DNA from: Wenzhouxiangella sp. AB-CW3
GTDB taxonomy: Bacteria > Pseudomonadota > Gammaproteobacteria > Xanthomonadales > Wenzhouxiangellaceae
DNA: 64,000 nucleotides
Direction of reading: 5' to 3'
Assembly (NCBI RefSeq): GCF_014725735.1
Contig: NZ_CP061368.1
Coordinates: 62,001-126,000 of the forward strand
The notes beneath the pieces were generated by a model, which had not been told where the DNA came from, did not search any database, and worked only from the letters and a program-made list of their open reading frames with translations. The translations under genes were made by a program, and so were the position numbers. Shown here in pieces: positions 18,164-53,269 of the stretch (positions are counted from its first letter, which is position 1; every line of letters starts with the position of its first letter).

Positions 18164-18184
18164 TAAGAGGTGAAAGGTTAAAGG
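18164..18184. repeat. Family A heptamer array, purine arm (left of four-helix gene)
   Basis: Three 7-bp units TAAGAGG, TGAAAGG, TTAAAGG, starting right after the rpmG terminator. The array overlaps the last codon and stop of the four-helix-bundle gene. The same units in inverse orientation lie at 18581-18624 on its other side. Confidence 0.8.
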
Positions 18185-18555
18185 AGTTTTGCTTTCTGGG
18201 TCTGGATCAGTGCGTTTAGCTTGGCGTTCTGAACTCGGATTCGCTCCAACAGTGTTTCTGGCTGGTCGAACAGTTCAATCTCACTGGCGATTCTGATCTG
18301 AGTGTCAAGCTCCATCAGCGATCCTCTCGAGATCTTCAGAAACCGGAGAAGCTCTTTTTCGGACCCCCGGGCAGCGCCCTCGGCAATATTGCTCGGTACG
18401 CTGATAGCCGATCGCTGCATTTGCAGACCCAGACCAAACTGCACCTGGCGAGGAAAGTGTCGTGTCAGCCTACAGATGTCAGCCGCGAGGCTCACGCCTT
18501 CTTTCCAAACCGTCAGCCTTAGATGATTCGGTTGCCGCCGATGCTCGCTCCTCAT
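18178..18555 (-). CDS. Four-helix-bundle protein (S23 / 23S rRNA intervening-sequence type)
   Basis: A 125-residue all-helical protein. Hallmarks are LTVWKEGVSLAADICRLTRHFP at the start, then LQMQRSAISVPSNIAEGAARG, ELLRFLKISRGSLMELDTQI, and a C-terminal helix. These are the S23/IVP family motifs, structurally related to the Avd accessory proteins of diversity-generating retroelements. No rRNA or reverse transcriptase is adjacent. The ATG at 18555 has GGAGGAGG about 10 bases upstream. Its role is unknown; free-standing members are widespread. It is bracketed by inverted heptamer arrays, unlike every other gene here. Confidence 0.88.
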   Translation of the reverse strand: MRSEHRRQPNHLRLTVWKEGVSLAADICRLTRHFPRQVQFGLGLQMQRSAISVPSNIAEGAARGSEKELLRFLKISRGSLMELDTQIRIASEIELFDQPETLLERIRVQNAKLNALIQTQKAKLL

Positions 18556-18580
18556 AAGTCCCAAGCCTCCTCCCCCTATC

Positions 18581-18624
18581 CCTTTTTCCTTTCACCTTTA
18601 ACCTCTTACCTTTTTCCTTTCACC
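18581..18624. repeat. Family A heptamer array, pyrimidine arm (right of four-helix gene)
   Basis: Six exact 7-bp units plus CC: CCTTTTT, CCTTTCA, CCTTTAA, CCTCTTA, CCTTTTT, CCTTTCA. The units CCTTTAA and CCTCTTA are the complements of units in the left arm at 18164-18184. It ends in TTTCACCG and is followed at once by the small palindrome GGCGCCGCAGGCGCC (18625-18639) at the radC stop. Confidence 0.9.
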
Positions 18625-18639
18625 GGCGCCGCAGGCGCC

Positions 18640-19314
18640 TCACACCAGCCCCCTCTCCGCAAGACTCACCACCTCCGCATCCCCCACAATAAAATGATCC
18701 AACAGCCGAATGTCGACCAGCGCCAGGGCGTCGCGCAGGCGGCGGGTGATGGCGAGGTCGGCCTGGCTGGGCTCGGCCACGCCCGAGGGATGGTTGTGCG
18801 CGACGATCAGTGCCGCGGCGCGTCGGGTCAGGGCTTTTTCGACCACCACGCGCGGGTGCACATGGGCCGAATCGATGGTGCCGGTGAACAGTTCGTCGAA
18901 GGCGATGACCCGGTGGCGGGTGTCGAGGTGCAGGGCGCAGAAGACTTCGTGCGGGCGGTCGCGAAGCGCCGCGCGAAGGTAGGTTCGGGTCGCCTGCGGG
19001 CTGGTCAGCGGCTGGCCGCGGCAGATCGATTCTCGCAGGTGCCGGCGAGCCAGCTCAAGTGCGGCCTGCACCTGGGCATATTTCGCCGGGCCCAGGCCCG
19101 GCATTCGGCAGAAGCTGTCATGGTCGGCATCGAGCAACTCGCGCAGTCCGCCGTGCCGGTTGATCAGCAGTCGGGCCAGGTCCAGCGCCGAACGCCCACG
19201 CGCCCCCGTGCGCAGGAGAATGGCGAGTAACTCGGCGTCGCTGAGCTGGCCTGGCCCTCTTGCCAGCAACCGTTCCCTGGGGCGTTCGGCCTGCGGCCAG
19301 TCGGCAATTCTCAT
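18640..19314 (-). CDS. radC: RadC family (JAB/MPN) protein
   Basis: A 224-residue RadC-type protein. It has an N-terminal helix-hairpin-helix-like part ([30 protein letters not shown]) and a C-terminal JAMM metal site: the HxH of VHPR and the HNHPSG motif with downstream Asp in PSQADLAIT. The DNA-repair role once attributed to RadC is disputed, and its biochemical activity is not settled. The ATG at 19314 has AGGTG 9 bases upstream and is preferred to an in-frame GTG at 19326. It diverges from coaBC, as in many gammaproteobacteria. Confidence 0.92.
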
Positions 19315-19431
19315 CGAAAGATTCACCTGGTGGGGATCGAGGCGTTATTCTGTGATGCGCAGGGATGCGGGGGCATTGGAGAGTTTCCCCGTCCGGGTGT
19401 AGGAAATCGACTTGATCGGAGCAATGCGGCC

Positions 19432-20634
19432 ATGACACTGACGGGTAGAAGGATTCTGCTGGGAATCAGCGGCGGTATCGCCGCCTACAAGTCGCCGGAA
19501 CTGGTTCGCCGCCTGCGCGATGCCGGCGCCGAGGTGCGTGTGGTCATGACCGCCGGTGCGGAGGCTTTTATCACTCCGTTGACCCTGCAGGCGGTCAGCG
19601 GTCATCGGGTACGCACCCACTTGCTGGATCCGGAAGCCGAGGCCGGCATGGGCCATATCGAACTAGCGCGCTGGGCCGAGGATATCGTCATCGCCCCGGC
19701 CACCGCGCAGGTTGTAGCGAAGCTCGCCCATGGCTTCGCTGACGACCTGCTGAGCACGCTCGTGCTGGCCAGTCAGGCGCGGCTCTGGGTGGCCCCGGCA
19801 ATGAATCGCCTGATGTGGGATGCCGAACCGGTGCGCGCCAATGTGGACCAACTGGTGCGCGGCGGCGCCCGCCTGCTCGGACCGGACCGTGGCGAGCAGG
19901 CCTGTGGTGAGCACGGAGCCGGCCGGATGCAGGAGCCCGATGTGATCGTTTCTGCAATGGCGGGCGCCAGCGAGCGCTCCCGGCCGCTTGTCGGCAAACG
20001 CTTCGTGGTGACCGCCGGTCCCACCCATGAGCCGCTGGATCCGGTTCGTTTTCTGGGCAACCGCTCGTCGGGACGCATGGGTTTTGCCGTGGCCCGGATG
20101 CTGGTCGAAGCCGGAGCCACCGTGGACCTGGTAGCCGGCCCGGTGAATCTGCCCACGCCGCCCGGGGTGCAGCGTGTGGATGTGGTCACTGCCCGCGAGA
20201 TGCTCGAAGCGGTGAATCGATGCATCGATGCTGCCGATGGTTTCGTGGCCGTGGCCGCGGTGGCCGACTACCGGCCCGAACACGAGGCAACCGACAAGCT
20301 CAAGAAATCCGGTGAGCCGGTCACCATGCATCTGGTCGAGAATCCGGATATCCTCGCCACTGTGGGACATCGACAGACACGACCGTTCGTGGTCGGATTT
20401 GCCGCCGAAACGCGTGACCTGGAAACATCGGCCCGCTCGAAGCTCAGTGCCAAGGGTGCCGATCTGATTGCGGCCAACCGGGTAGGGCACGAGCTGGGCT
20501 TTGATCGCGAGGACAATGCTCTGGAGGTGTTCTCGGCCCACCGTCACTGGTCGCTGGGTCCGCGCTCGAAGTGTCAACTGGCGCGCGAGCTGGTCGATAT
20601 CATTGCCGGCGAAATGAAAGCAAGGGAAAGATAG
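19432..20634 (+). CDS. coaBC: Bifunctional phosphopantothenoylcysteine decarboxylase / phosphopantothenate-cysteine ligase
   Basis: A 400-residue fusion for two steps of coenzyme A synthesis. The CoaC half has ISGGIAAYKSPEL, the active-site His in MGHIELARWAEDI, the PAMNRLMW motif and the ACGEHGAGRM flap Cys. The CoaB half starts near residue 187 (FVVTAGPTHEPLDPVRFLGN), with NRSSGRMG and the KLKKSGEP lysines. The ATG at 19432 matches the family N-terminus (MTLTGRRILLGISGG). It is the first gene of coaBC-dut-algC, an order shared with Pseudomonas. Confidence 0.95.
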   Translation: MTLTGRRILLGISGGIAAYKSPELVRRLRDAGAEVRVVMTAGAEAFITPLTLQAVSGHRVRTHLLDPEAEAGMGHIELARWAEDIVIAPATAQVVAKLAHGFADDLLSTLVLASQARLWVAPAMNRLMWDAEPVRANVDQLVRGGARLLGPDRGEQACGEHGAGRMQEPDVIVSAMAGASERSRPLVGKRFVVTAGPTHEPLDPVRFLGNRSSGRMGFAVARMLVEAGATVDLVAGPVNLPTPPGVQRVDVVTAREMLEAVNRCIDAADGFVAVAAVADYRPEHEATDKLKKSGEPVTMHLVENPDILATVGHRQTRPFVVGFAAETRDLETSARSKLSAKGADLIAANRVGHELGFDREDNALEVFSAHRHWSLGPRSKCQLARELVDIIAGEMKARER

Positions 20635-20640
20635 CGAGAC

Positions 20641-21096
20641 ATGAGGGACCTCAAAGTCAGAATTCTCGATCCCCGCATGGGCCGCGACTGGCCGCTGCCG
20701 GAGTACGCGACCAGCGGGTCGGCCGGGATGGACCTCCGTGCCTGCCTGGATGAACCGCTGGAGCTGAAGCCGGGGGAGACCCACCTGCTGCCTTCTGGCC
20801 TGGCCATCCATCTTGACGATCCGACATTGGCCGCCGTATTGCTGCCTCGCTCGGGGCTGGGCCACAAGCAGGGGCTGGTGCTCGGCAACCTGGTCGGGCT
20901 GATCGACAGCGACTACCAGGGCGAGGTCAAAATCTCCTGCTGGAACCGATCGAACACGACCATCACCATCGAACCGGGCCAGCGCATCTGCCAGCTCGTG
21001 GTGGTGCCCGTAGTCCAGGTCCAGCTAAACCTGGTCGATTCCTTCGACAGAAGCGAGCGGGCCGAAGGCGGCATTGGACATACGGGGACGCAATGA
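20641..21096 (+). CDS. dut: dUTP diphosphatase (dUTPase)
   Basis: A 151-residue trimeric-type dUTPase that hydrolyses dUTP to dUMP. The five motifs are visible: [35 protein letters not shown] and the C-terminal [11 protein letters not shown]. The last motif is GGIGHTG where many enzymes have GGFGSTG, so the stacking Phe is Ile. It is 6 bp after coaBC and overlaps the algC start (ATGA). Confidence 0.95.
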
Positions 21097-24053
21097 GCCA
21101 GTCAACCGGAGCAAGGAAGGGCCAGAACCAGGCCAGTGACGCCAACAGCCAACCTGCCATTGGAAGGATCCTGCTCGTCATCGGGGTGCTGGTCGTGCTG
21201 GCGGGTGCAGGCGCCATTCTGCAGCCGATGCTGGTCTCCGAGGACGGCGGTCCGGCCCGAGTGGCCGCGCAGGCCAGCGCCGAGTCGGTGGCCGCAACGT
21301 TGGCCGATTTCAAGGACAAATTGCGCGATGGATCGGTTCAGTCCGCCGCCCGGCAGGTGCCGGCCGATAACCCGCAGCAGACCGGCGATGTGACCGCGGC
21401 CCTGGAGGCCCTTGGCGTGATCGGCATTCTCGACCTTCGGGTCTATCCGCCCCGAGCCGAGGAGATTGAAGTCGGCACCTATCCCGAGCCAGATTTCACC
21501 GCCGTGCAGATGCTGGTGGAAGCGCGCCGGTCCGGTTCGGGCCGTGTGCGTCACCGGGATCCGGCCGAAGGCGTTGAGCATTTCGCCTTTACCGAGGCGG
21601 TTGTCGATGGCGATGACGAAGTCACCGGCGTGATGCTGTTGCGCCTGCATGCCGATCCGGTGCGGCGCCACTTGCAGGCACCTGAAGGCAATACCTGGGT
21701 CCGGCTGGTACAGGACTCGCGCGTGATTCGCGCCCTGCCCACCGCCAGTGGCTTGCCCGAAGCATTGGGCAGTGAGTCGGTTGCCGGCAGTGCGCTGGCA
21801 GTCGAATGGGGGGTGATCGGGCAGCCTGGGATTCTCTCGGCTGCGCAGTCAGCCGTGGTACTGGCGCTGGGCATTCTTGTGCTTGTCGGTGGCGCCCTGA
21901 TTCACCTGGGCAAGCTGGGCCGCCGTCCCGTAGCCGCGACGCCACAGGCCCCGGCGCGTGCCGAACAGTCCACTCCCGCGCGTGCCACAGCCGCCAAGGC
22001 CGCGCCCGAGAAAGCCGCTGACAAGCCACAGCCACCGCCAGCAGCCGATGAAAAGCCCGATCTGCCCGACTGGATGCTTGACCAAGGTGGCGACGACTCT
22101 TCCCTGCCGTTTGGAGAAACCCCTGGGCAGACTACTGAATCTGTTGAACCCGCCGAACCCGCCGAACCCGCGGAATCCGCTCCCACGGTTGACGAGGGCC
22201 TGGATCTGGATGTGCCCGATCTTGACGATATTCTGGCCAACATCGAGGAGGAAGGCAGCAAGCCGCCCGGCGCCTCGGCTGACGGCAAGGACGTTGACCC
22301 CGGCCTGGATTTCAATACTGACGATTCGTTATCGTCTACAACACCGCCGCCGGCCGCAGATGCACCTGCTACGCAACCGGATCCCGAAAGTCGGCGGCAG
22401 GAGGAAGTGCTGGGGTCCGAAGAGCTGTCCAACCTGGCTCGTGGCGGCAGTACCCCGGGCGATGACCGGATGCCCGCACCGGAGTCCAGGCCTGAAGCGG
22501 TGCCAGAACCTCCGGCCCGCCCGCGACCCGAACTAGAACCAGAACCAGAACCCGAGCCCGAGCCCGAGCCCAGGTCCGCTCCAGCGTCCCGACCCGAACC
22601 GACCCCCGATTCGGGTGCTGCTGTCGATGGCGTCTCCGATGTCGAGCCGGCCGATATCCCGTCGGCATTGCAGGGCCACGAGCGATTGCCGCCGGAAAGG
22701 TTCTGGCGCGACCGCATCATCGGCGTCGTGGATCGCGAACTGGACGCCGAGCTGGCCGCCTCCCTGGGCCAGGCCATAGGCACGTACGCCCGAGAGCAGG
22801 GATTTCAGACCGTGGCGGTGGGCCGCGACGGTCGCCTCAGCGGTCCGGTGATCATGTCCGCCCTGATCCGTGGTCTGCGCAATACCGGTGTTGACGTGAT
22901 CGAGGCCGGCGCGGTGCCCTCGCCGGCCTTGTGGTATACCGCCTGCGAAATGGCCAATGGCTGCGGGGTCATGGTCAGCGCATCCCATCATGCACCCGAG
23001 TACAACGGCTTTCAGGTGATGCTCGGCGGCCAGATGCTGCAACGTCAGAATCTGCTGGCCATCGGCGAGATTGCTGCGCAGCAGCGTTTTGCCGAGGGCA
23101 GCGGCGGTTACCTGCAGGAAAATGCCGCTCGTTCCTATGCAACCGCCCTGGCCGACACCGTGAACTTGAAGCGCAAGCTCAAGGTGGTGGTCGATTGCGG
23201 CAATGGCATTCCCGCCAGCATCGTGCCGGCCCTGTTCGATGCCCTGGAGCTCGATCTCATTCCGCTCTATTGCGATGTCGATGGTTCTTTCCCCAACCAC
23301 CGGCCCGACCCGTCCGATCCGGAATGCATCGAGGATCTGCGCCTGTGCGTGCGCAACTTCCAGGCGGATATCGGATTTGCCTTCGATGGCGATGGCGACC
23401 GCCTGGCCGTCATTTCCGATGCCGGCGAGCCTATTGCCCCGGACCGGTTAATGATGCTGTTCGCCGCTCACCTGCTCGAGCAAACCTCGGGTGCCAGCAT
23501 CGTCGTCGACGTTCGCAGCTGTGCTCAATTGCCGGAGCTGGTGAGTGACCGCGGTGGCAAGCCCGGTTTTGCACCGGCCGGTGGCGGGCCGGTGGCACGC
23601 AGCGTGGTTGAACATGATGCAGTTCTCGGCGGCGACATGGACGGGCAGTTCATCCTGGCGCGGCGCTGGTATCCCTTCGGGGATGCGATCTGTGCGGCCG
23701 TGAGGTTGCTGGAATTGCTGACCGCGCAATCCCGGGGGATGGCCGAGCTGGTCGAGGAGCTGCCGGAGTCGCGCACCACCGGCGCCCTGAAGCTGGGTGT
23801 CGATGCAGCTAAAGGCGATGAACTGATTGCGGCCCTGAAACAGCCCGGGCAGTTCGATGATGCGCAAATCACTACCATTGATGGTTTGCGGGTGGATTTC
23901 GCGGATCGCTGGGCCCTGCTGCGGGTCTGTCATGACGCCAATGAAACCATGCTGTATTTCGGCGCCGGCGAACCCGATGCACTCAATCGCATCAAGTCAG
24001 AGTTCCGCGACCGCCTGCTGGCGGTGGACTCAGAACTGAAGCTGCCCTACTGA
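21093..24053 (+). CDS. algC: Phosphomannomutase/phosphoglucomutase with membrane-anchored N-terminal extension
   Basis: A 986-residue protein, over twice the usual 450-460. Residues about 540-986 are a complete alpha-D-phosphohexomutase: catalytic Ser631 in [14 protein letters not shown] and Mg2+ site Asp765/767/769 in [11 protein letters not shown]. The N-terminus has a membrane helix (about 25-45), an extracytoplasmic-type domain of about 200 residues, a second helix (about 250-272), then a Pro/Glu/Ala-rich linker of about 260 residues including a run of EP dipeptides. Such extended AlgC forms occur in Xanthomonadales-type genomes. The catalytic part should face the cytoplasm and supply mannose-1-P or glucose-1-P for surface glycans. 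Confidence 0.88.
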
Positions 24054-24065
24054 GGCCAGTGAGGT

Positions 24066-24605
24066 TTGACCACGCTGCTGTTCAACAAGCCCTTCCGGGT
24101 CTTGTCGCAGTTCACCGACCCCGAAGGCCGTGCCACCCTGGCCGACTTTATCGACCGCCCCGGAGTGTACGCGGCCGGCCGCCTGGATTTTGACAGCGAA
24201 GGCCTGATGGTGCTGACCGACAACGGTCGTTTGAAGGCCGCGCTGACCGATCCGGTCAGTTGCACGCCCAAGACCTACCTGGTCCAGGTCGAAGGCCGCC
24301 CGGCCGTCAACGCCATCGACAGACTGAACCGCGGACTGAGTCTGAAGGACGGACCAACCCGCCCGGCCAAGGTCGAATTGCTGGCGCGTTCACCCGGCTG
24401 GCTGTGGCCACGCAAACCCCCGGTCAATCCCCGCAAGGGCCGCCCGACAGCCTGGCTGAGAATCACCATCACCGAAGGCCGCAACCGTCAGGTCCGCCGC
24501 ATGACCGCCGCCGTCGGCCTGCCCACGCTGCGCCTGGTGCGGACCCGCGTCGGCGACTACGAGCTGGGGAAGTTGCAGCCGGGGGAATGGGTAGAAGAAG
24601 TGTGA
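24066..24605 (+). CDS. rluE: 23S rRNA pseudouridine synthase, RluE type
   Basis: A 179-residue RsuA/RluB/E/F family enzyme without an N-terminal S4 domain, as in RluE. The catalytic Asp is in [27 protein letters not shown] and [25 protein letters not shown] are the other family motifs. E. coli RluE modifies U2457 of 23S rRNA. The start is a TTG with GTGAGG just upstream, since no ATG or GTG precedes the conserved LLFNKPF. The stop codon falls inside a heptamer-like repeat. Confidence 0.88.
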
Positions 24606-24613
24606 AGGGTGGA

Positions 24614-24716
24614 GTGTGAAGTGTGAAGTGTGAAGAGGGGGCTTGCGGTTTGTTGTGGGGGGAGGTTGGAGTTGGGGGGCTTTGGTGGTGGTGGGGTGTC
24701 AAGTGTTAAGTGTTAG
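24614..24716. repeat. Family B heptamer units, purine arm
   Basis: Three GTGTGAA units at 24614-24634 and three further units (GTGTCAA, GTGTTAA, GTGTTAG) at 24696-24716, separated by G/T-rich sequence. Together with the array at 24740-24858 they fill the rluE/gshA convergent gap. Confidence 0.75.
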
Positions 24717-24739
24717 GGGGGTGGTTCGTGGAGTCTGTT

Positions 24740-24858
24740 CCGTCTCCCGTCCTCCGTCCTCCGTCCTCCGTCTTCCGTCTTCCGTCTTACGTCTCCCGTC
24801 CTCCGTCTTCCGTCTTCCGTCTCCCGTCTTCCGTCTCCCGTCTCCCGTCTCCCGTCTC
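24740..24858. repeat. Family D heptamer array, 17 units of CCGTCYY
   Basis: Seventeen uninterrupted 7-bp units: CCGTCTC, CCGTCCT, CCGTCTT and one ACGTCTC. Variation is almost confined to the last two positions. This is the longest single array in the window. It has no complementary arm nearby; the purine arm before it is of family B. Confidence 0.95.
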
Positions 24859-24861
24859 CCC

Positions 24862-24883
24862 GCACGGCGCGCCAGCGCCGTGC
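24862..24883. repeat. Perfect 9-bp hairpin at the gshA stop
   Basis: GCACGGCGC and GCGCCGTGC with loop GCCA, touching the gshA stop codon. On the minus strand it is placed like a terminator stem, but the following bases are the GGGAGACGG repeats, not a T-run. Confidence 0.7.
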
Positions 24884-26235: not shown

Positions 26236-26420
26236 GGTCTTTGGCTCGATAAAGCGAATCGCGATTATCGCCGTTTTGCCAACCCGGCAGCAAACAAGCG
26301 CTGTGCCATGGCCATGTATTACCATGGAGTCCAGTCTCTGCCGTTCCGGACCCGGCCGGCCAGGTCCCTGACTCAAATGCCCATGACGAAGATGTGTTCA
26401 CTGCCGCGGTTTCTGCCACG

Positions 26421-28133: not shown

Positions 28134-28147
28134 ATCGGGTGCTGGAC

Positions 28148-28226
28148 AGGGTAAAGGTAAAAGGTAAAAGGGAAAAGGAAGGTAGCTGGACATCGTCCTT
28201 TCACCTTTCACCTTTCACTTTTCACC
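28148..28226. repeat. Family A inverted heptamer array between oppA and oppB
   Basis: The purine arm at 28148-28182 is five units of the AGGTAAA type. The pyrimidine arm at 28197-28226 is three CCTTTCA, one CTTTTCA and CC. Only 14 bp separate the arms, so RNA or single-stranded DNA could fold into an imperfect hairpin of about 30 bp. It ends TTTTCACCG like the other family A loci. Confidence 0.9.
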
Positions 28227-28243: not shown

Positions 28244-28248
28244 TCCCC

Positions 28249-30093: not shown

Positions 30094-30246
30094 GGTAAAA
30101 GGTGAAAGGAGGAAAGATGTCTGTTAGGTTGAGAAACGGGCGATTTTGCCATGGCTGGAGAATCGCCGCCGGATGGGAGAGCATCGAGTGCCATGCGCTG
30201 GCACTTGAGGCCTTTTCCTTTTACCTTTCACCTTTTACCTTTCACC
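30094..30246. repeat. Family A inverted heptamer array between oppC and oppD
   Basis: The purine arm (GGTAAAA, GGTGAAA, GGAGGAA) starts at 30094 after GGC. The pyrimidine arm at 30211-30246 is CCTTTT, then CCTTTTA and CCTTTCA alternating twice, then CC. The outer ends GGCGGT and ACCGCC are also complementary. The 95-bp spacer holds two further inverted repeats, GGCGATT/AATCGCC and AGTGCCA/TGGCACT. The oppD ATG is 8 bp beyond. Confidence 0.88.
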
Positions 30247-39275: not shown

Positions 39276-39325
39276 TCGTAACAACGACTCGCAGACCCGG
39301 GAATCTCGCCGTCAGGTACGTCGCC

Positions 39326-39356
39326 GAGTCCCGAGTCCCGAGTCCCGAGTCCCGAG
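39326..39356. repeat. Family C heptamer array before atpG
   Basis: Four GAGTCCC units plus GAG, pyrimidine orientation, with no clear complementary arm upstream. The last GAG runs directly into AGGAAAC, the atpG ribosome site, and the ATG is 7 bp further. Confidence 0.92.
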
Positions 39357-40227: not shown

Positions 40228-40235
40228 TGGAACGA

Positions 40236-40307
40236 GGTGAAAGGTAAAAGGTAAGAGGTGAAAGGACTGACTGGGCTCCTTTTACTTTTCACCTTTTGCC
40301 TTTCACC
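40236..40307. repeat. Family A inverted heptamer array between atpG and atpD
   Basis: The purine arm at 40236-40265 is GGTGAAA, GGTAAAA, GGTAAGA, GGTGAAA, GG. The pyrimidine arm at 40278-40307 is CCTTTTA, CTTTTCA, CCTTTTG, CCTTTCA, CC. Only 12 bp separate them. Laid against each other in RNA, the two 30-nt arms make about 25 Watson-Crick pairs, four G-U pairs and one A-C mismatch, so the atp mRNA should carry a strong hairpin here. Confidence 0.93.
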
Positions 40308-40371: not shown

Positions 40372-41766
<1,395 letters not shown>

Positions 41767-43632: not shown

Positions 43633-43733
43633 ATCAGTTCTCCACTTGAATGACGGCGATCATTGTGCGCCCAAATTGTTGCTGCTGCCAGTGCTGAAAG
43701 TCACTGCGGCAGAACCCGGCCATTCCGAAGGGC

Positions 43734-44588: not shown

Positions 44589-44651
44589 GGGCTGGCTCCT
44601 CCAGAACAGTGGCGGGGGCATTGTAATCCAGACAGGGAACCGGCACCGCTC

Positions 44652-44855
44652 ATGACGACCAGTCTCAGTGAGATCAACGCCCGCCTGGCCGAGCTGCGCG
44701 AAGAGCATCGTGACCTTGATGAGGCCATTGGCCAGATGTCGGACAATCGCGCCACCGATCAGCTGCAGCTTATCCGAATGAAGAAGCGTAAACTGCGCTT
44801 ACGCGACCAGATCGCCTACTGGGAGAGCAAGCTCATTCCCGACCTGGATGCATGA
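44652..44855 (+). CDS. DUF465 (YdcH-like) small protein
   Basis: A 67-residue helical protein. The features [16 protein letters not shown] followed by [20 protein letters not shown] are typical of DUF465/YdcH, a coiled-coil family of unknown function. It diverges from ttcA and converges on plsB. Confidence 0.8.
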
Positions 44856-44874
44856 GGAGCCTCTGAGTCGCAAC

Positions 44875-47382
44875 TCAGGCGGCTTCCTGGTCGAGCTCGG
44901 GCAGCTGCGGGGTTACCTGGATGATGGTGTGCCGGATCTCCTTGGCCAGCACCAGCTTGGCATCTCGTGCGAAGTCTTCGAGCTGACGATCAAAGGTCAG
45001 GTGACCATCGTCGTCACGGCCCAGGATGCCGCTTTCGAACAGCGACTCGATAAACTGCCGGAACAGCGTGCGATCGTAGAACTCCGGCGCTTCGAATTCG
45101 TGCAGCAGGGAAATTCGCTGGGCGCTTAGAATGCACAGTCGTTCCAGTTGCTTGCGCGTCATGCGACCCGAGCCGTTCTTGACCAGTACCGCTACGGTGA
45201 TGAAGTAGCGTTCGAAAGTCTGAAGCAGCGAGCCGCCGAGCAGCCGCAGATAGTAGCTCTCGTCGCTGCCGCCCGCGGCGCGCTGTAGAAACTCACCCGA
45301 AGAGCGCAACAGCCCCATGTCGATCAGTGCCTGCATGCAGCGCTCGATCACTCCAGAGAGTTCCTCGGGCTCCCACGGTAGAAAGAGTTCGCGCCGGATG
45401 AACGGGTAGACAAAGTGACTGAGCTGCTCGACGCGACCCTTTCGAACCCGTTGCACGTTCAAAAAGCAGCACGCGATCCAGGCGCTCATGGCCACCAGGT
45501 GGGCGATGTTGTTGCGGAAGTAGGTCAGCAGCACCGCGTTGGTGGCATCAGTGCGGATAATGTTGCCCAGCGGGTGTTCCTGTCGCTCGATAATGCCCAG
45601 TTCCAGGCCGTATTCGATCACCTGTCCGGGTGTGAGCGTGGTCAGGGTAATGCGATCGGAGTATGCGGTCAGCGCAATGATGTCTTTCAGCAGCCCGATG
45701 GTTCTTTCCAGATCGTCTTCGTCCAGCGCCTGCTTGCGACTGGCCAGCAGCGCGGTGGCGAGGAGGTTGATCGGGTTGACGTCCGCGCTGCGATTGATGT
45801 TGACCATGATCTGGCGGGCCAGGTCATCGACCATCCCGGAGAGCCAGCGGGGCTTGCTGTTCTCGTCCAGCGGCTCGCCGCTCCATTCCGGGTGATGCGC
45901 TTCGAGCAGGCGATTGAGCAGAATCGGCTCGCCAAAGCTCACCGCCACCTCGCCGTAGTTCTTGCGCAGGATATTGATGACGTTTCTGAAGTCCGACAGC
46001 GACTCCGGCTTTTTCTGGCGCCCGGACAGCTCCGAGATATACGAACTGCCTTCTGCCAGGCGCTCGTAGCCGATATACACCGGCTGGAACATCACCGGCT
46101 TGCCGGGATTTCGGAGAAAGGCGCGAATGGTGATGGACAGCATGCCGGCGCGCGGTGGCAGCAGCCGTCCGGTGCGCGAGCGCGTGCCCTCGATGAAATA
46201 CTCCAGCGACACACCGCGGTCGAGAATCAACGTGACGTACTGGTTGAACACGGCAGCATACAGCGGCTGGGAGCGAAAGGTACGACGCAGGAAGAAAGCC
46301 CCGCCGCGCCTGAGCAACGGGCCCACCAGCGGCATGTTGAGATTGACCCCGGCGGCGATGTGCGGTGGCACGAAGCCCCGATGGTAGAGCAGCCAGGACA
46401 ACAGCATGTAGTCCATGTGACTGCGATGACAGGGCACGTAGACGATTTCGTGACCGGGTGCCTGCTCGCGGAACTCGCTGAAATGGTGCACCGTGACCCC
46501 GCGGTAAATCCGGCTCCAGAACCAGCTCAACAGCAGGTCGGCAATGCGCACGAAGGTGTAGGAATAGTCGGCGGCGATTTCGTGGGCGTACTTGCGCGCC
46601 TCGGCCTCGGCCCGTTCACGGCTCATGTCGTCACGCCGCATCTTGGCCGCAATCGCCTCCTGCACCGCGGGGCTGCGCACCACGCGTTCGACCAGGGTGC
46701 GCCGGTGTGATCGATCGGGGCCGATGGCCGCGGTTCGCACGCGCTTGAAGTGAACCCGCAACACCCGGCTGACCCGTCTGAGCGCCTGCTCGCGGTCTTC
46801 GGTTTCCTCAAAGACGCGCTCAAGGGTAACCGGTTTGCCGAACTGCACCATGGTGGCCCGGCCGTTGATAAGGGTGCTGAACAAACGGCGAAGACGGCCC
46901 CCCACGCTCCAGTTTTCGGAAAACAGGATCTTGAAGAAACTCACTTCCTTATCGGGTGCGCGCCCGACCAGCACGGTGACTGGAACGATTTGCACCTGGG
47001 CCAGGCCATTATCGGCCGCAGCTTCAATCAGCTCACCCAGGATCCAGGAGTGCCGACGCTTTTTCGGGCGCCTGAGAATGAAGCCGCCGTAGCGCCGGCT
47101 GGCCCCGAAGCTGCGCGAAAACGAGGCCTTGCCGTGCTGGAATGGCACCAGCGGGCGTGGCAGGCGAAGACGCATGCAGACCTGTTCCAGGATCAGCACC
47201 GAGCTCAGCGCATAGGTGTCGATCATGTAGAACACCGGCCGGTCCCGGTCCAGTGCCAGGTCGTCGAAGTCCTCCGGCAGCACGGTGGAACGGACCCACC
47301 AGTGAAGAATGCGCCGCAGCAGCGCCAGCCAGGCCCCGTAGAGCGTGGTCAGGAATCGTTTGAATGGATGCGGATCAGCCAT
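44875..47382 (-). CDS. plsB: Glycerol-3-phosphate 1-O-acyltransferase
   Basis: An 835-residue inner-membrane enzyme for the first acylation in phospholipid synthesis. The acyltransferase blocks are in order: CHRSHMDYML near residue 317 (HX4D catalytic pair), a GGAFFLRRTFR block, and FIEGTRSRTGRLLPPRAGML near residue 395. Length is close to E. coli PlsB (807). An extended -10 (TGGTAGAAT on the minus strand) lies about 50 bp before the ATG. A small-RNA-like unit ends 75 bp upstream. Confidence 0.95.
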   Translation of the reverse strand: MADPHPFKRFLTTLYGAWLALLRRILHWWVRSTVLPEDFDDLALDRDRPVFYMIDTYALSSVLILEQVCMRLRLPRPLVPFQHGKASFSRSFGASRRYGGFILRRPKKRRHSWILGELIEAAADNGLAQVQIVPVTVLVGRAPDKEVSFFKILFSENWSVGGRLRRLFSTLINGRATMVQFGKPVTLERVFEETEDREQALRRVSRVLRVHFKRVRTAAIGPDRSHRRTLVERVVRSPAVQEAIAAKMRRDDMSRERAEAEARKYAHEIAADYSYTFVRIADLLLSWFWSRIYRGVTVHHFSEFREQAPGHEIVYVPCHRSHMDYMLLSWLLYHRGFVPPHIAAGVNLNMPLVGPLLRRGGAFFLRRTFRSQPLYAAVFNQYVTLILDRGVSLEYFIEGTRSRTGRLLPPRAGMLSITIRAFLRNPGKPVMFQPVYIGYERLAEGSSYISELSGRQKKPESLSDFRNVINILRKNYGEVAVSFGEPILLNRLLEAHHPEWSGEPLDENSKPRWLSGMVDDLARQIMVNINRSADVNPINLLATALLASRKQALDEDDLERTIGLLKDIIALTAYSDRITLTTLTPGQVIEYGLELGIIERQEHPLGNIIRTDATNAVLLTYFRNNIAHLVAMSAWIACCFLNVQRVRKGRVEQLSHFVYPFIRRELFLPWEPEELSGVIERCMQALIDMGLLRSSGEFLQRAAGGSDESYYLRLLGGSLLQTFERYFITVAVLVKNGSGRMTRKQLERLCILSAQRISLLHEFEAPEFYDRTLFRQFIESLFESGILGRDDDGHLTFDRQLEDFARDAKLVLAKEIRHTIIQVTPQLPELDQEAA

Positions 47383-47456
47383 GCAGAGAGGCGTGCTTGG
47401 AAGCCGGAAAGAGGGCGAAACATTCTACCATTGACGATGCGCTTGCCCCTTGGAGC

Positions 47457-47490
47457 AAAAAAAACCGGGCTTGCGCAGAGGCTTGCCCGG
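47457..47490 (-). terminator. Terminator of the candidate small RNA
   Basis: On the minus strand CCGGGC and GCCCGG enclose a 14-base loop and are followed by eight T. It lies between the small-RNA candidate and plsB. Confidence 0.7.
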
Positions 47491-47579
47491 CAATGGCACG
47501 GTCCGGAGAGGACTGTCCCGGTGGCGTCACGGACGCCGTTGTTGATCGTTCTGGCGACGGGTCGAGACCCGTACCGTGC
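47457..47579 (-). ncRNA. Candidate structured small RNA upstream of plsB
   Basis: About 123 nt between a promoter and an intrinsic terminator, without a convincing reading frame (only a 19-codon one). The predicted 5' end GCACGGT pairs with ACCGTGC near the 3' side (47573-47579 with 47496-47502). Enclosed are a hairpin ACGGGTC/GACCCGT with a two-base loop and a hairpin GGCGT/ACGCC. The strong fold plus flanking signals suggest a real transcript, either an independent sRNA or a long plsB leader. I do not recognise a known family. Confidence 0.5.
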
Positions 47580-47584
47580 AGCGC

Positions 47585-47613
47585 ATGTTACGCAATTAAC
47601 AGAACTTTATCAA
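47585..47613 (-). promoter_or_regulatory. Promoter of the candidate small RNA
   Basis: On the minus strand TTGATA, a 17-bp spacer and TAACAT sit in a notably AT-rich stretch. The expected start is near 47578, at the first base pairs of the folded RNA. Confidence 0.6.
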
Positions 47614-47713
47614 GAGCCTGAGAAAATCTACACAAACCATTGAAATTATGTTGATTTCGCGGGTTACCCTGATTTGCGTCAGGCCGCCGACGGGCTCTTG
47701 ATCGGCGATTCTC

Positions 47714-48424
47714 TCAGGTGTCGAAGTGCGCCGCGATCTGTTGCTGGATCTCAGCCGCGGCCGCGGCCGGGTCGCTGGCATCGCGGATGGGGCGGCCAAC
47801 GACGATGTGATCGGCGCCGGCCTCGAAGGCCTCGGGCACCGACAGGGTGCGTTTTTGCTCGTCGATGTTGGCGACCGGGCGGATACCGGGGCAGACCACC
47901 ACCAGCCGATGATCCACGTCGCGGCGCAGTGCCGGAACCTCAAGACCGGAGGAAATGACGCCCGTGCACCCAAGCTCGAAGGCGCGTCGGGCCCGCGACC
48001 GCACCAGTTGTTCGATGTCGCACTGAAAACCCAGGTCGTTCAGGTCGCCTTGATCCAGGCTGGTCAGGGCGGTCACTGCCAGAATGCCCATGTCACCGCG
48101 ATGGGCCACGGCCGCTTCGAGCATGGCGTCGTTGCCGTGCACGGTCAGAAAGTCCACTTCGCGCCGCGCCAGCTGCGCGGTGGCACGACCCACGGTGGGC
48201 GGGATATCGAACAGCTTCAGGTCGGCGAACACCCGCTTGCCGGCGGCCTTCAGTTCGTCGGCCAGCGCGAAGTAATGTCCGCTGAGAAAGAACTCCAGAC
48301 CCAGCTTGTAGAACTGTACGTGCTCGCCCAGGGTGCGGATCAGGCCGCGTGCCTGGTCGATATCCGGGACGTCGAGGGCAAAGATCAGGCGCTGATCAGT
48401 CGGAATCGGGGTGCGCTGGTTCAT
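47714..48424 (-). CDS. pyrF: Orotidine-5'-phosphate decarboxylase
   Basis: A 236-residue enzyme catalysing the last step of UMP synthesis. The catalytic segment VFADLKLFDIPPTV contains the Asp-Lys pair, and the phosphate loops are VCPGIRP and HIVVGRPI. The ATG at 48424 (MNQRTPIPTDQRL) is preferred to a TTG at 48433 which sits too close to AAGGAG. The 5' end overlaps the upstream hydrolase gene. Confidence 0.94.
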   Translation of the reverse strand: MNQRTPIPTDQRLIFALDVPDIDQARGLIRTLGEHVQFYKLGLEFFLSGHYFALADELKAAGKRVFADLKLFDIPPTVGRATAQLARREVDFLTVHGNDAMLEAAVAHRGDMGILAVTALTSLDQGDLNDLGFQCDIEQLVRSRARRAFELGCTGVISSGLEVPALRRDVDHRLVVVCPGIRPVANIDEQKRTLSVPEAFEAGADHIVVGRPIRDASDPAAAAAEIQQQIAAHFDT

Positions 48425-49247
48425 GATTCTCAAAGTGCTCCTTGATGGCCGGCCCGATCCGGGCCGGGTGATGCATGTGAAGATGATGGCCTCCGGGGCA
48501 ATCCAGACTGGTTGCCTGCCGCAGCGCCGCCCGGCGTCGTCGGGCCATTTCTCGCGGCAATTTACTGCCGGGCGGGTCAGACTGGATCGTGAGTACCGGG
48601 CATTCTATCGCTCCGAGCAGTTCAAGCACCTGTGGCTCGGAGTAGCGATGCGACGAGGGCCAGCGCAAACGGGGATCGTGATGCCAGTAAACACCCTCCT
48701 GGCTGGTTCGGGTACCCCGCTCGGCAAGCATCCGGCTCGCCTCGAACCCCAGGTCGCCATTCTTTGCCCTGGCTTGCGCCGCAGCATCGAGATCGGCATG
48801 TCGCCGGGGCGTGTGGGGCCTGGAGCGCTCCACTGCTCGGCGCCAGCCGGCTACCGTGTCAGTGGCCGGCGCGCTCAAGGGGCCCGTTCCTTCGATGAGC
48901 ACCAGTGAGCTGATCCGCTCTGGTGCGGCTGCGGCAGTGATGGCAGCCACCGCGCCGCCCAGGGAGTGACCGATGATTCCGGCCTTGTCCCAGCCCAGAT
49001 GATCCATCGCGCCGAGCACATCGAAGACATAATCGTCGAAATGATAGCGCGCCTGATCCGGCCGTCGGGCCGACTCGCCATGGCCGGCAAAATCCAGCGC
49101 GATCAGATCGATACCGTCCAGCTCGTCGGCCAGTGGCAGAAACGAATGCGCGTTGTCGAGCCACCCATGCAGCGCCAGGACGCGATGTGGCCCCCGCCGC
49201 CAGCGCAGGCCGGCCAGATCGCCTACCTGCACTGATTCGGCACTCAA
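48396..49247 (-). CDS. Alpha/beta-fold hydrolase
   Basis: A 283-residue hydrolase. HGWLDNAHSFLPLADEL holds the oxyanion region, the nucleophile is Ser in GHSLGGAVA, and the likely catalytic His is in CPGGHHLHMHHP. The TTG at 49247 overlaps the uvrD stop as TTGA with GGAG about 9 bases upstream; a longer form would reach into uvrD. The sequence resembles serine hydrolase-like/esterase proteins, and the substrate is unknown. Confidence 0.82.
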   Translation of the reverse strand: MSAESVQVGDLAGLRWRRGPHRVLALHGWLDNAHSFLPLADELDGIDLIALDFAGHGESARRPDQARYHFDDYVFDVLGAMDHLGWDKAGIIGHSLGGAVAAITAAAAPERISSLVLIEGTGPLSAPATDTVAGWRRAVERSRPHTPRRHADLDAAAQARAKNGDLGFEASRMLAERGTRTSQEGVYWHHDPRLRWPSSHRYSEPQVLELLGAIECPVLTIQSDPPGSKLPREMARRRRAALRQATSLDCPGGHHLHMHHPARIGPAIKEHFENHEPAHPDSD

Positions 49248-51421
49248 TCCAGCCGCTCCAGCGATGCGTAGGCCAGCACCAGCCACTTGCTGCCGGCCGT
49301 TTCGAAATTGACCTGCACGCGTGCATTGTCGCCCTGGCCTTCCAGGCTGACCACGGTGCCGATCCCGAAACGTCCATGCTCCACCGTGCCTCCCAGCCTG
49401 AGGCCATGATCAGGCGCCGTGTCCGGCGCAGCGCTCATTCGGCCCATGCCCGCTCCGGCTTCGCCTGCGGAGGAGCGCGGTCGTACGGACTCGACCAGGT
49501 GCGTGGGCAACTCATCGACAAAACGCGAGGGCCTCGACATTACCCGCTGTCCATGCAGGTGCCGCGATTCGGCATAGCTGATGTAGAGCTGCTTCATTGC
49601 CCGGGTCATGCCGACATAGCACAGCCGCCGTTCCTCCGACAGCCGGCCGGGCTCCTCGACTGATTTCTGATGTGGAAACAGCCCTTCTTCCACCCCGGCC
49701 ATGAAGACCAGAGGAAACTCCAGCCCCTTGGCCGAGTGCAGGGTCATCAGTTGCACACAGTCCTGCCAGCGTTCTCCCTGGTGTTCGCCGGCTTCCAGTG
49801 CGGCCTGGGCGAGAAAGGACGCCAGCGGCGACAGGCCGGCCTGACTGTCTTCTTCGGGTTGCTGAAAGCTTTCAGCCGCACGCACCAGCTCCTGCAGGTT
49901 TTCCTCCCGGGTTTCGGCGCGGTCGGGCGCTTCCCGCCCCCGGTACCATTCGCCCAGTTGTGCGCTGCCGACCACGGCGGCCATGGTATCGCCCAGCGAT
50001 GCGCTCGCCGTCTGTTCATCGAGCTGCTCGATCTTGTCGATGAACGCCGATACCGACCGCGCCGCGCGCGCCGGCAGGCCCTGCCCGGATACCAGCGCCC
50101 GGGCCGAGGTAAACAGCGAGCACTGATTCGAGCGCGCATGCTCGCGAATCCTCTCCACGCTGCGCTCGCCAATGCCGCGGGCCGGTACATTGATGACGCG
50201 TTCGAATGCCGGGTCATCGTTGCGATTGTGCAGAAGCCGGAGGTAGGCCATGGCATCCTTGATCTCGGCGCGCTCGAAGAAGCGCTGTCCGCCGTAGACG
50301 CGATAGTCAATACCTTCACGCAACAGGGCCTGTTCGAACAGCCGCGACTGAGCGTTGGAGCGATACAGGATCGCGGTTTCCGACGGGTTGCCGCCCGCCT
50401 CGATCCAGTCCTGGATGCGGGCAATGACGAAATCGGCTTCTTCCTCTGCGTTCCAGGCAGAAAAAAGCCGGATCGGGTCCCCTGTTTCGCCTTCGGTCCA
50501 GAGGTTCTTGCCCATGCGATCGTCGTTGTGATCGATGACGCGGTTGGCCGCCTCCAGGATGGTCTGCGTCGAGCGGTAGTTCTGCTCCAGGCGCACCACC
50601 GTGGGTTCGAAATCACGCACGAAGTCGGACACGTTTTCGACCCGCGCACCGCGCCAGCCATAAATCGACTGGTCGTCGTCGCCGACCACGAACATGCGGC
50701 CCTGCTCGCCCGAGAGCAGTCGAACCAACGCGTATTGCAGCCGGTTGGTGTCCTGGAACTCATCGATCAGGGTGTGGCCGAAGCGGCCCTGGTATTGCGC
50801 CCGGCGGTTCGGGTTGTCGCGCAGCAGCTCCACGGTCCGGAGCAACAGCTCGGCAAAGTCGACCAGTCCCGACCGCTCACAATAGTCCTGGTAATGCCGA
50901 TAGATGGCGACCTGGCTGACTGAATGCGGGTTGTCGAAATGATCGATGTCTTGTGGTCGACGGCCCTCATCCTTGTGATGATTGATCAGCCCCTGCATGG
51001 CACGCGGCGGAAACTGCCCCTCATCGTGTTCCATATCGCGGATCACACGCCGGACCAGCCGGTACTGGTCGTCGGAATCGAGGATCTGGAAGGTGTCGGG
51101 CAGGCCGACTTCATCGGCATGCATGCGCAGCATGCGATGACAGATGCCGTGAAACGTGCCGATCCACAACCCCTCAGGCCGAATACCCAGCAACTCCCCC
51201 ACCCGGGCGCGCATCTCGCCGGCAGCCTTGTTGGTAAAGGTGACGGCCAAAAGCCCCATCGGGCTGACATGATGGACCTGGATCAGCCAGGCAATGCGAT
51301 GGACCAGTACCCGCGTCTTGCCCGAACCGGCCCCGGCCAGCACCAGCAAATGACCCTCATCGGCCGTGACCGCCTCGCGCTGAGCGTCGTTGAGTTCGTC
51401 GAGAAGGTGACTGACGTCCAT
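49244..51421 (-). CDS. uvrD: DNA helicase II (UvrD)
   Basis: A 725-residue superfamily 1A helicase for mismatch and excision repair. Q-motif LNDAQREAV, Walker A LAGAGSGKTRVL, motif Ia VTFTNKAAGEMRARV, motif II LIDEFQDTNRLQY, motif III GDDDQSIYGWRGA, motif V TLHSAKGLEFPLVFMAG, motif VI EERRLCYVGMTRA. The C-terminal segment GTVEHGRFGIGTVVSLEG is the UvrD Tudor-like part. The heptamer locus C lies directly upstream. Confidence 0.96.
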   Translation of the reverse strand: MDVSHLLDELNDAQREAVTADEGHLLVLAGAGSGKTRVLVHRIAWLIQVHHVSPMGLLAVTFTNKAAGEMRARVGELLGIRPEGLWIGTFHGICHRMLRMHADEVGLPDTFQILDSDDQYRLVRRVIRDMEHDEGQFPPRAMQGLINHHKDEGRRPQDIDHFDNPHSVSQVAIYRHYQDYCERSGLVDFAELLLRTVELLRDNPNRRAQYQGRFGHTLIDEFQDTNRLQYALVRLLSGEQGRMFVVGDDDQSIYGWRGARVENVSDFVRDFEPTVVRLEQNYRSTQTILEAANRVIDHNDDRMGKNLWTEGETGDPIRLFSAWNAEEEADFVIARIQDWIEAGGNPSETAILYRSNAQSRLFEQALLREGIDYRVYGGQRFFERAEIKDAMAYLRLLHNRNDDPAFERVINVPARGIGERSVERIREHARSNQCSLFTSARALVSGQGLPARAARSVSAFIDKIEQLDEQTASASLGDTMAAVVGSAQLGEWYRGREAPDRAETREENLQELVRAAESFQQPEEDSQAGLSPLASFLAQAALEAGEHQGERWQDCVQLMTLHSAKGLEFPLVFMAGVEEGLFPHQKSVEEPGRLSEERRLCYVGMTRAMKQLYISYAESRHLHGQRVMSRPSRFVDELPTHLVESVRPRSSAGEAGAGMGRMSAAPDTAPDHGLRLGGTVEHGRFGIGTVVSLEGQGDNARVQVNFETAGSKWLVLAYASLERLD

Positions 51422-51431
51422 GGGGTTCTAT

Positions 51432-51610
51432 CGGGACTCGGGACTCGGGACTGGAAGGATTGGTCGGGACTCGGGACCCGGGACTCGGGACTCGCTACTG
51501 TTGGCTACGTGGCATTTTCGAGGGTGGGGGCTCCGACTAGCGTTAGATTTCTCCCTCGCTTGAACGGCCGGGGTTTTTCCGAGTCCCGAGTCCCGAGTCC
51601 CGAGTCCCGA
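51432..51610. repeat. Family C inverted heptamer array between uvrD and purD
   Basis: The purine arm is three CGGGACT units (51432-51452), a 12-bp break, then CGGGACT, CGGGACC, CGGGACT, CGGGACT (51465-51492). The pyrimidine arm is four GAGTCCC units plus GA (51581-51610). The second purine block and the pyrimidine arm are complementary over about 30 bp with one mismatch; about 86 bp lie between them. Confidence 0.93.
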
Positions 51611-51640
51611 CACCCCATTAGCTGATCGAAGCCGCACCAC

Positions 51641-52933
51641 TTAGCCGCCCTCCGAGTCTCGATCCACGGCACGGTACCCAATATCCGTCCGATAAAACGC
51701 GTCTTCGAAGCCAACCTGAGCCAGCCACTGGTAGGCGCGGGCCTGGGCCTTGGCCACGCTTTCGCCCAGTGCCACCAGGCAAAGCACGCGGCCGCCGCTG
51801 GTCGCCACCTGGCCATCGTCGGCCAGGCGCGTGCCGGCATGAAAGACCTTGACGTCTTCGGGCAGTTCGGCATCCAGCCCGTGAATCGGACGCCCTTTTT
51901 CGTAGCTTCCCGGATAGCCGCCTGCGGCCATGACCACGCCCAGGGCGTAGCGTTTGTCCCACTCCAGCTCGATCTGGTCGAGTTCGCCCGCCAGGGTGCG
52001 ATTGATGACTTCGATCAGGTCGGATTTCAGTCGCATCAGCACCGGCTGGGCTTCCGGGTCGCCAAAGCGCACGTTGAATTCCAGCACCCTGGGGCCGTCG
52101 GCCGTCAGCATCACGCCGGCGTAGAGAAAGCCGGTGAAGGGACAGCCATCGGACTTCAGTCCGACCAGGGTCGGTTCGACGATGTCGTGCATGATCTGCT
52201 CATGCACCGCATCGGTGACCACGGGTGCGGGCGAATAGGCGCCCATGCCGCCGGTGTTCGGCCCTTGGTCCTGGTTGTCGCGGCGCTTGTGATCCTGGCT
52301 GGAGGCCAGCGGAAGCACCTTGTCGCCATCGGCGATGACAATGAAGCTGGCTTCCTCGCCAACCAGGAACTCCTCGATCACCACCCGGCTGCCGGCCTGG
52401 CCAAAAGCATTGCCCGAGAGCATGTCTTCAAGCGTCGATTCGACCGTGTCCATGTCTTCGGCGATGATCACACCCTTGCCGGCAGCCAGCCCGTCGGCCT
52501 TGAGCACCACCGGCAGGCCCAGCTCTTGAACAAAGGCCTTGCCGGTCTCGACATCCTCGACCACCTTGTAGCCGGCGGTGGGAATCTCGTGTCGCGCCAT
52601 GAAATCCTTGGCAAACGCCTTGGATGACTCCAGCCGCGCCGCCGCCGCATTCGGGCCGAAACAGGCCAGCCCGGCCTCGGCAAAACGATCAACAATGCCG
52701 GCCGCCAACGGCGCTTCCGGCCCGACGATGGTCAGGTCGATGCCTTCGCTCTTGGCCAGATTCAGCAGGCCATCGATGTCCTCGGCACCGATGTCGACAT
52801 TCTCCACTCCTTCCTCGGTGGCCGTGCCGGCATTCCCGGGCGCTACCAGCACACGCGTGACACCTTTCGACCGCGCGGCCTTCCAGGCCAGCGCATGCTC
52901 GCGGCCACCGCCGCCGACGATGAGGGTTTTCAT
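51641..52933 (-). CDS. purD: Phosphoribosylamine-glycine ligase
   Basis: A 430-residue ATP-grasp enzyme, step two of purine synthesis. It starts MKTLIVGGGGREHALAWKAA. ATP-grasp elements are PVVLKADGLAAGKGVIIAED, QDHKRRDNQDQGPNTGGMGA and LEFNVRFGDPEAQ. It follows purH in the fis-purH-purD order, separated from purH by a 359-bp gap filled with a heptamer inverted array. Confidence 0.96.
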   Translation of the reverse strand: MKTLIVGGGGREHALAWKAARSKGVTRVLVAPGNAGTATEEGVENVDIGAEDIDGLLNLAKSEGIDLTIVGPEAPLAAGIVDRFAEAGLACFGPNAAAARLESSKAFAKDFMARHEIPTAGYKVVEDVETGKAFVQELGLPVVLKADGLAAGKGVIIAEDMDTVESTLEDMLSGNAFGQAGSRVVIEEFLVGEEASFIVIADGDKVLPLASSQDHKRRDNQDQGPNTGGMGAYSPAPVVTDAVHEQIMHDIVEPTLVGLKSDGCPFTGFLYAGVMLTADGPRVLEFNVRFGDPEAQPVLMRLKSDLIEVINRTLAGELDQIELEWDKRYALGVVMAAGGYPGSYEKGRPIHGLDAELPEDVKVFHAGTRLADDGQVATSGGRVLCLVALGESVAKAQARAYQWLAQVGFEDAFYRTDIGYRAVDRDSEGG

Positions 52934-52996
52934 GGGGGAGGCTTCGGATTGCTTGGGTGGAAGCGTATTGTAACGTGGCTTCGTTGGGGGTCGGGG

Positions 52997-53269
52997 GTGT
53001 GAAGTGTTAAGTGTTAAGTGTGAAGTGTGAAGTGTTAAGTGTTAAGTGTTAAGTGTTAAGTAGGGCTCCGGTGGCGGTGGGGGTGTTTCGGGTTTGGTGG
53101 TCTCGGTTGAGGCAGGTGGCTGGGGGTTCGGTGCCAGGGATTGTCTTAACGCTCAGCATCTCGAAGACTACGACCGCCTGATCCCCCCAAGCAACCAAAT
53201 GCCCCCACTTCACACTTCACACTTCACACTTCACACTTCACACTTCACACCTCACACCTCACACCTCAC
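52997..53269. repeat. Family B inverted heptamer array between purH and purD
   Basis: The purine arm is nine 7-bp units of GTGTGAA or GTGTTAA (52997-53059). The pyrimidine arm is nine units, six ACTTCAC then three ACCTCAC (53207-53269). The 147-bp spacer has no gene. The equal unit number on both sides is striking. Confidence 0.93.

Follow-up and report, generated by a model that had tools for sequence, protein, structure and literature searches.

Two-armed heptamer arrays and PF05635 genes in Wenzhouxiangella and other bacteria: probable ends of stem-loop elements of the intervening-sequence kind

Results

We analyzed a 64,000-nucleotide stretch of the Wenzhouxiangella sp. AB-CW3 genome (NZ_CP061368.1, positions 62,001–126,000; hereafter the window), taken from a single contig of 3.84 Mb, in which eight intergenic loci carry tandem arrays of 7-base-pair (bp) units (Table 1). 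At the first locus (18164–18624), between rpmG and radC, the arrays form two arms that enclose a gene matching PF05635, the protein of 23S ribosomal RNA (rRNA) intervening sequences (IVSs), with E = 3.5e-29 and 101.6 bits against a cut-off of 33.8. This protein, referred to below as IVP, has a solved homologue in XCC0516 (structure 2gsc, E = 1.3e-24). An earlier note on the same DNA, which had described the arrays and suggested one mechanism behind their different units, missed the encoded protein. We refer to an IVP gene with both its arms as a full element.

All eight loci of that note were recovered with Tandem Repeats Finder and by direct reading. Six of them are pairs sharing one unit family, with the inverse-complementary arms that had been described; the others are a lone C-rich array at 39324 and a mosaic at 24597–24860, where GTGTKAA arrays on the left and CCGTCYY on the right are not complementary and have no partner arms. 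The four families originally listed (CCTTTYA, GTGTKAA, CGGGACT and CCGTCYY) are present, and more than four exist in a larger sample consisting of the window and 40 evenly spaced 20-kb stretches (864 kb, 22% of the genome), on which the following counts are based. Among periods 4–12, period 7 accounted for all 36 intergenic arrays with a score of ≥18 and for 53 of those with a score of ≥14, compared with 7 arrays of other periods at ≥14 and none of any kind at that score in three rounds of dinucleotide-shuffled intergenic DNA, so period-7 arrays are commoner than in shuffled sequence. Genome-wide, the CCTTTYA pattern gave 284 matches versus 0 for a reversed control (≤2 mismatches, overlapping matches counted).

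At a score of ≥9 we found 74 intergenic period-7 arrays, 36 of which belong to an inverted pair; paired arms are therefore not peculiar to the window, and the sample holds 19 inverted pairs at 17 loci (two loci count twice) together with 2 direct neighbor pairs of one family. The arm richer in G than in C comes first in all 19 inverted pairs, a polarity independent of strand because an inverted pair looks the same from either strand; the order had been described as purine arm before pyrimidine arm, which is better put in terms of G and C. With gene edges taken from our own gene caller, 70 of the 74 arrays could be placed, G-rich arrays lying after a stop codon in 35 cases and before a start codon in none, and C-rich arrays before a start in 29 and after a stop in 6. 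Several arrays lie within the opp and atp operons; among named organisms, the closest relatives of the window's OppD come mostly from Wenzhouxiangella. All three inverted pairs with spacers of 386–388 bp enclose an IVP gene.

We next give the association of IVP genes with two-armed arrays across bacteria, with genomes and loci denoted by G and L numbers. Of the 43 family genomes, 21 had a PF05635 match above the curated cut-off, as did 48 of the 299 phylum genomes and 112 of the 299 order genomes; none of 14 control genomes had a match. We examined 109 IVP loci (two from the window's genome) from Pseudomonadota, Cyanobacteria and one Gemmatimonadota plasmid, these being as a rule the best matches per genome rather than every match, and 106 were left after removal of identical stretches and short flanks. 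Under a strict rule requiring both arms at one period and reverse-complementary units, 80 of the 106 IVP loci were two-armed, compared with 2 of 675 control genes, one at period 10 and one at period 6; the controls were ordinary genes of the sample, treated with the same geometry, from which IVP-like genes had been excluded by motif. An earlier, looser count gave 50/72 versus 16/638. Among the 80 two-armed IVP loci the period was 7 in 68, 8 in 7, 14 in 4 and 13 in 1, and the G-rich arm came first in 79. Because G-over-C skew fitted 49/50 cases and the purine/pyrimidine rule 44/50, we replaced the latter by the former. The units themselves varied, with 57 distinct ones at the 80 loci after merging rotations and complements, and no constant palindrome.

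The association extends to plasmids, where 8 of the 11 IVP loci examined (out of 20 matches) passed the strict rule (Nostoc, Calothrix, Anabaena, Geminocystis and Gemmatirosa) and those of Stanieria (L302), Pseudanabaena (L303) and Nostoc HK-01 (L309) failed; for cyanobacterial plasmids, heptamer arms were present in 7 of 10. In the order genomes, CGGGACT arms were found between carA and carB (L410), and the IVP gene at L421, which lies between accB and accC, has GGGATTC-type arms. Two loci on cyanobacterial plasmids (L303 and L307) have the IVP gene between cas6 and cas4, and at L249 the repeats that flank it are not heptamers but longer units, about 20 bp by eye, with palindromes inside them.

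Inverted tandem arrays also surround a second class of small genes at a different period. For GxxExxY genes (PF13366, PDDEXK_3; L311–L340), 23 of 30 loci were testable and 15 had such arrays, with periods of 8 (5 loci), 9 (4) and 10 (6), none at 7, and no clear polarity (9/15). Several relatives carry a GxxExxY element at oppA–oppB, where the window has heptamer arms.

To follow individual sites, we compared four junctions in relatives, with up to 30 loci each from the 37–39 genomes with a match. Arrays come and go as blocks after the stop codon, and the empty sites that the earlier note had asked for are present in other species of the genus; atpG–atpD, for example, is empty in G018, G022, G024, G025, G028 and G033. 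One and the same junction bears different units in different species, an 8-mer among them. Units were shared by 34 of 109 site pairs within a genome, compared with 32 of 208 pairs from the same site in other genomes and 130 of 1,453 pairs from other sites in other genomes, and none of 500 permutations reached the within-genome value of 34. Furthermore, of 26 arrays lying outside IVP elements (two of them GxxExxY arms), 19 have a unit that matches an IVP arm of their own genome, with a permutation mean of 4.9 and a maximum of 16/26 in 2,000 permutations. Together with the occurrence of period 7 at IVP genes in several phyla, this supports the suggestion of a mechanism common to different units. 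Junction arrays were present in 11 of 14 genus genomes with IVP and 4 of 13 without (Fisher P = 0.021, with no correction for kinship). The density of period-7 arrays with a score of ≥14 was 64 per Mb in G000, 20 in G037, 10 in G036 and 0 in G015, in which no IVP was found, the last three being based on 200 kb each.

These results bear on the idea that replication slippage makes the heptamers and template switching in hairpins makes the inverted pairs, with IVP genes merely nearby. In its favor, array length and unit vary and arms within a locus agree, and a polymerase-footprint idea is mentioned by Rehm et al. (PMC4692102). However, slippage accounts neither for the excess of two-armed arrays at IVP genes over controls and their near-constant polarity, nor for periods of 8–10 around GxxExxY genes, nor for the units that other arrays share with IVP arms in their own genome, and we consider it unlikely.

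In predicted RNA folds, the oppA–oppB and atpG–atpD inserts form strong hairpins (Table 1), and the full element is closed by its arms (z −2.55; 2 of 100 shuffles as good); the fold of a single arm (52990–53075) was uninformative (z −1.37). Such hairpins, and the filling of the same junctions in several species, would be expected of intercistronic structures that serve the host as terminators or RNase III sites and whose unit is freely chosen. While this would explain folding, the junctions are empty in many species, neither the IVP gene nor unit sharing is predicted, and differences between arms show no wobble preference (A·C or C·A 13, G·U 10), making host-serving hairpins an improbable explanation. 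Selection for fine RNA pairing is likewise unsupported, exact pairing being disfavored because there is no preference for G·U, and the likeness of arms more likely results from copying between them.

A general role for G-quadruplexes, as proposed for GGGAATC repeats, would fit the GG or GGG in many units, the common number of about four units and the gene-edge placement reported by Rehm et al. (PMC4692102). Single-G units tell against this as a general cause and leave it very improbable: the AGAAAAT, AGTAAAT and TTTCTAT families of G017 lack a G tract in every unit, and AGAAAAT/TTTCTAT arrays occupy the same junctions with the same architecture. Least credible of all are repetitive extragenic palindromic (REP) or bacterial interspersed mosaic elements moved by a REP-associated tyrosine (RAYT, Y1) transposase, since the intergenic inverted pairs and six PF01797 matches in G000 are offset by the lack of a constant palindrome and of any PF01797 match (E ≤ 0.001) in the array-bearing genomes G016, G021, G026, G027, G029 and G036 (G026 and G027 incomplete).

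A retroelement reliant on a PF00078 reverse transcriptase was also rejected, with no match (E ≤ 0.001) in the IVP-bearing genomes G016, G017, G018, G021, G029 and G032. Carriers thus need not have a detectable Y1 transposase or PF00078 reverse transcriptase. Separately, G000 has nine PF00078 matches within about 29 kb (about 3.79–3.82 Mb), several equal in score and some of them fragments.

IVP elements recur at the same sites. The radC site is common to eight IVP loci, and the seven from the genus form one clade (support 96/86 and 86/81 in two trees). In the radC IVP tree, G027 stands apart from its host sister G026 (52% identity for IVP versus 94% for three housekeeping proteins), and a grouping of G000, G026 and G027 was rejected by an approximately unbiased (AU) test that was picked after the trees had been seen (p-AU = 0.0012). 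Because the radC IVP tree conflicts with the host tree, passage of elements between hosts is indicated, though not proven. Arm units at radC track the IVP subclade. A previous idea, that the IVP gene is inherited vertically while its arms are rewritten in place, was withdrawn because radC IVP lineages do not follow their hosts.

Elements of the same kind also occur in 23S rRNA. In G241, a genome in a single contig, two of the four IVP loci (L390 and L391) are near-identical elements within large-subunit (LSU, 23S) rRNA matches. These rRNA copies have a 33-nucleotide inverted match (score 25) and, on the 3′ side, a period-7 array; with a score of only 5.5 at lag 7 for the 5′ arm, they fail the strict rule. 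Of the two copies elsewhere, the one adjoining ruvC has clear GAGTGAG arms and the other is weak.

Table 1. Arrays, arms and genes at the eight loci of the window (positions in the window).
Locus	Feature	Position	Strand or place	Basis and remarks
18164–18624	rpmG	17936–18103	+	
	G-rich arm of full IVP element (TAAGAGG TGAAAGG TTAAAGG)	18164–18184	rpmG side	Sequence reading; pairs with other arm in RNA fold
	IVP gene (PF05635, 23S_rRNA_IVP), four-helix-bundle protein, 128 aa, TTG start	18178–18564	−	Profile match
	C-rich arm of full IVP element, CCTTTYA family	18581–18624	Adjoins radC	Tandem Repeats Finder
	radC	18640–19326	−	
24597–24860	G-rich GTGTKAA-family array	24597–24635		Tandem Repeats Finder
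	G-rich GTGTTAA array, about 3 units	24696–24715		Tandem Repeats Finder
	C-rich CCGTCYY array, about 17 units, without matching G-rich arm	24740–24860		Tandem Repeats Finder
28153–28226	G-rich arm	28153–28178	oppA–oppB junction	Tandem Repeats Finder; hairpin z −4.38
	C-rich arm	28197–28226	oppA–oppB junction	Tandem Repeats Finder
30094–30246	Short G-rich arm	30094–30109	oppC–oppD junction	Sequence reading
	C-rich arm	30211–30246	oppC–oppD junction, 7 nt before oppD start	Tandem Repeats Finder
39324–39356	Single C-rich CCGAGTC array	39324–39356	atpA–atpG junction, 7 nt before atpG start	Tandem Repeats Finder
40235–40307	G-rich arm	40235–40265	atpG–atpD junction	Tandem Repeats Finder; hairpin z −8.86; empty sites in relatives
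	C-rich arm	40278–40307	atpG–atpD junction	Tandem Repeats Finder
51431–51610	G-rich CGGGACT arm, two blocks (51431–51452, 51464–51494)	51431–51494		Tandem Repeats Finder
	C-rich CCGAGTC arm	51579–51610		Tandem Repeats Finder
52997–53269	G-rich GTGTKAA arm, about 9 units	52997–53061		Tandem Repeats Finder
	C-rich CACTTCA arm, about 9 units	53206–53269		Tandem Repeats Finder

Apart from these loci, the window contains a SAM riboswitch (10603–10715, + strand; Rfam RF00162, 80.4 bits).

Discussion

We propose that the two-armed heptamer arrays form the ends of IVS-like selfish elements with a stem-loop structure, which reside mostly between genes and not inside rRNA, and put the probability of this reading at roughly 0.7. 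A full element would have an IVP (S23/PF05635) gene, about 125 codons long, set between two heptamer arms, the G-rich one first and the C-rich one last; pairs lacking IVP and single arrays would be satellites of the same kind, whose unit goes with the IVP elements that the genome carries. The arms would close a long stem in RNA, and the insert would either fold away or be cut by RNase III, as happens in rRNA, which would permit persistence inside the atp and opp operons. Slippage, together with copying between arms and between loci, may keep the arms alike, and the IVP protein is the likely arm-binding partner.

Several observations weigh against this proposal. The strict rule failed for 26 of 106 IVP loci, 19 of them one-armed and 7 armless at that threshold, and the failures include an rRNA copy (L390) as well as the three cyanobacterial plasmid loci; at L242 and L247 both sides look C-rich or direct, and L303 has direct repeats. 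Junction arrays occur in G024, G030, G033 and G034 despite no detected IVP (these genomes are 80–90% complete), 80 kb of G014, a 99% complete genome in which no IVP was found, contain 2 period-7 arrays, and G018, G037 and G039 have IVP but no junction arrays. In G000 taken alone, 50 of 60 arrays match the genome's own IVP arms where 36.6 (5–95%: 22–50) are expected from the arms of other genomes, and this comparison is not used as support. No target-site duplication was seen by eye at atpG–atpD, the missing wobble preference counts here as well, and the radC conflict, besides its post hoc test, could also be produced by hidden paralogy.

The origin of pairs without IVP raises a related difficulty. 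No sequence is common to the spacers of different loci, and no IVP remnants are present in those of pairs without IVP, so that these pairs are not visibly deleted copies; an origin as deletion derivatives, in the manner of miniature inverted-repeat transposable elements (MITEs), is not supported, with arm units alone matching. As interiors are not shared, it is therefore the arm sequence that spreads or is kept alike.

A bolder extension, which we hold only tentatively and think doubtful, is that the enclosed small protein sets the repeat period (7 for IVP, 8–10 for the nuclease-like GxxExxY proteins) and acts in trans, writing or rehomogenizing the arrays at stem-loop ends throughout the genome, so that existing sites would be converted to the unit of a newly arrived element, in loose likeness to the addition of telomere repeats. 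If so, this would be an array-writing system of a bacterial kind.

If the stem-loop proposal is right, two unexplained things, the S23/IVP proteins known from rRNA IVSs and heptamers like those of Xanthomonas and cyanobacteria, would be united in one widespread class of elements that also occupies operons of essential genes, giving a testable answer on the nature of heptamer repeats. It also raises the question of how the unit is free to differ while period, polarity and position stay fixed.

Relation to known systems

Heptamers have precedents in filamentous cyanobacteria, whose short tandemly repeated repetitive (STRR) sequences have a period of 7 and are intergenic; these properties are shared here, and our own comparison rests on the plasmid IVP loci. 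STRR and REP sequences had been offered in the earlier note as analogies only; no RAYT was found in many array-bearing genomes. With MITEs and insertion sequences the present elements share inverted ends, empty sites and the coexistence of few coding with more numerous short forms, but they differ in having no shared interior, no fixed terminal sequence and no target duplication seen by eye.

The same note did not recognize the two-armed form, which had in fact been recorded in Xanthomonas as convergent GGGAATC pairs, with 70 and 75 cases in two genomes, described as inverted pairs at conserved positions with no role assigned (Rehm et al. 2015, PMC4692102). Like the GGGAATC/GGGGAYT heptamers of Xanthomonas and Nostoc in that account, the present arrays have about four units, prefer gene edges (intergenic, G-rich after a stop or C-rich before a start), form inverted pairs (in Xanthomonas) and mostly occupy the same junctions in relatives. 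Unlike them, they include units without G runs that behave alike, whereas the parts of the account drawn on here deal with G-rich quadruplex units and make no link to IVP. The GGGATTC-type arms around the IVP gene at accB–accC resemble the published Xanthomonas heptamer.

IVP open reading frames (ORFs) have been placed in rRNA inserts and near cas genes (PMC11270868, PMC3936711). In the open-licence literature, by title or abstract, we found no paper in which IVP genes are connected to two-armed arrays of heptamers, which is no proof of absence; the Xanthomonas pairs and the Coxiella IVS heptamers are already published.

The closest relatives are the rRNA IVSs, described with an S23p/IVP ORF in Coxiella, Leptospira, Brucella and Xanthomonas; they are cut by RNase III, and the solved homologue of the IVP protein is a pentamer ring (PMC4990558). 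The present elements differ in that most copies lie outside rRNA, the unit varies between genomes and between loci, and an ORF is missing from many two-armed copies: in the window, a PF05635 ORF lies inside the full element only, and that element sits between protein-coding genes instead of in an rRNA helix, while G241 has the same kind within LSU rRNA. They are alike in their stem-closing terminal inverted repeats, seen here as array pairs and in predicted RNA folds, in the PF05635-type ORF, in sporadic spread and in the heptamers themselves, since tandem heptamers precede the S23p ORF in the 5′ part of the Coxiella IVS, which also has a 28-bp stem (PMC4990558).

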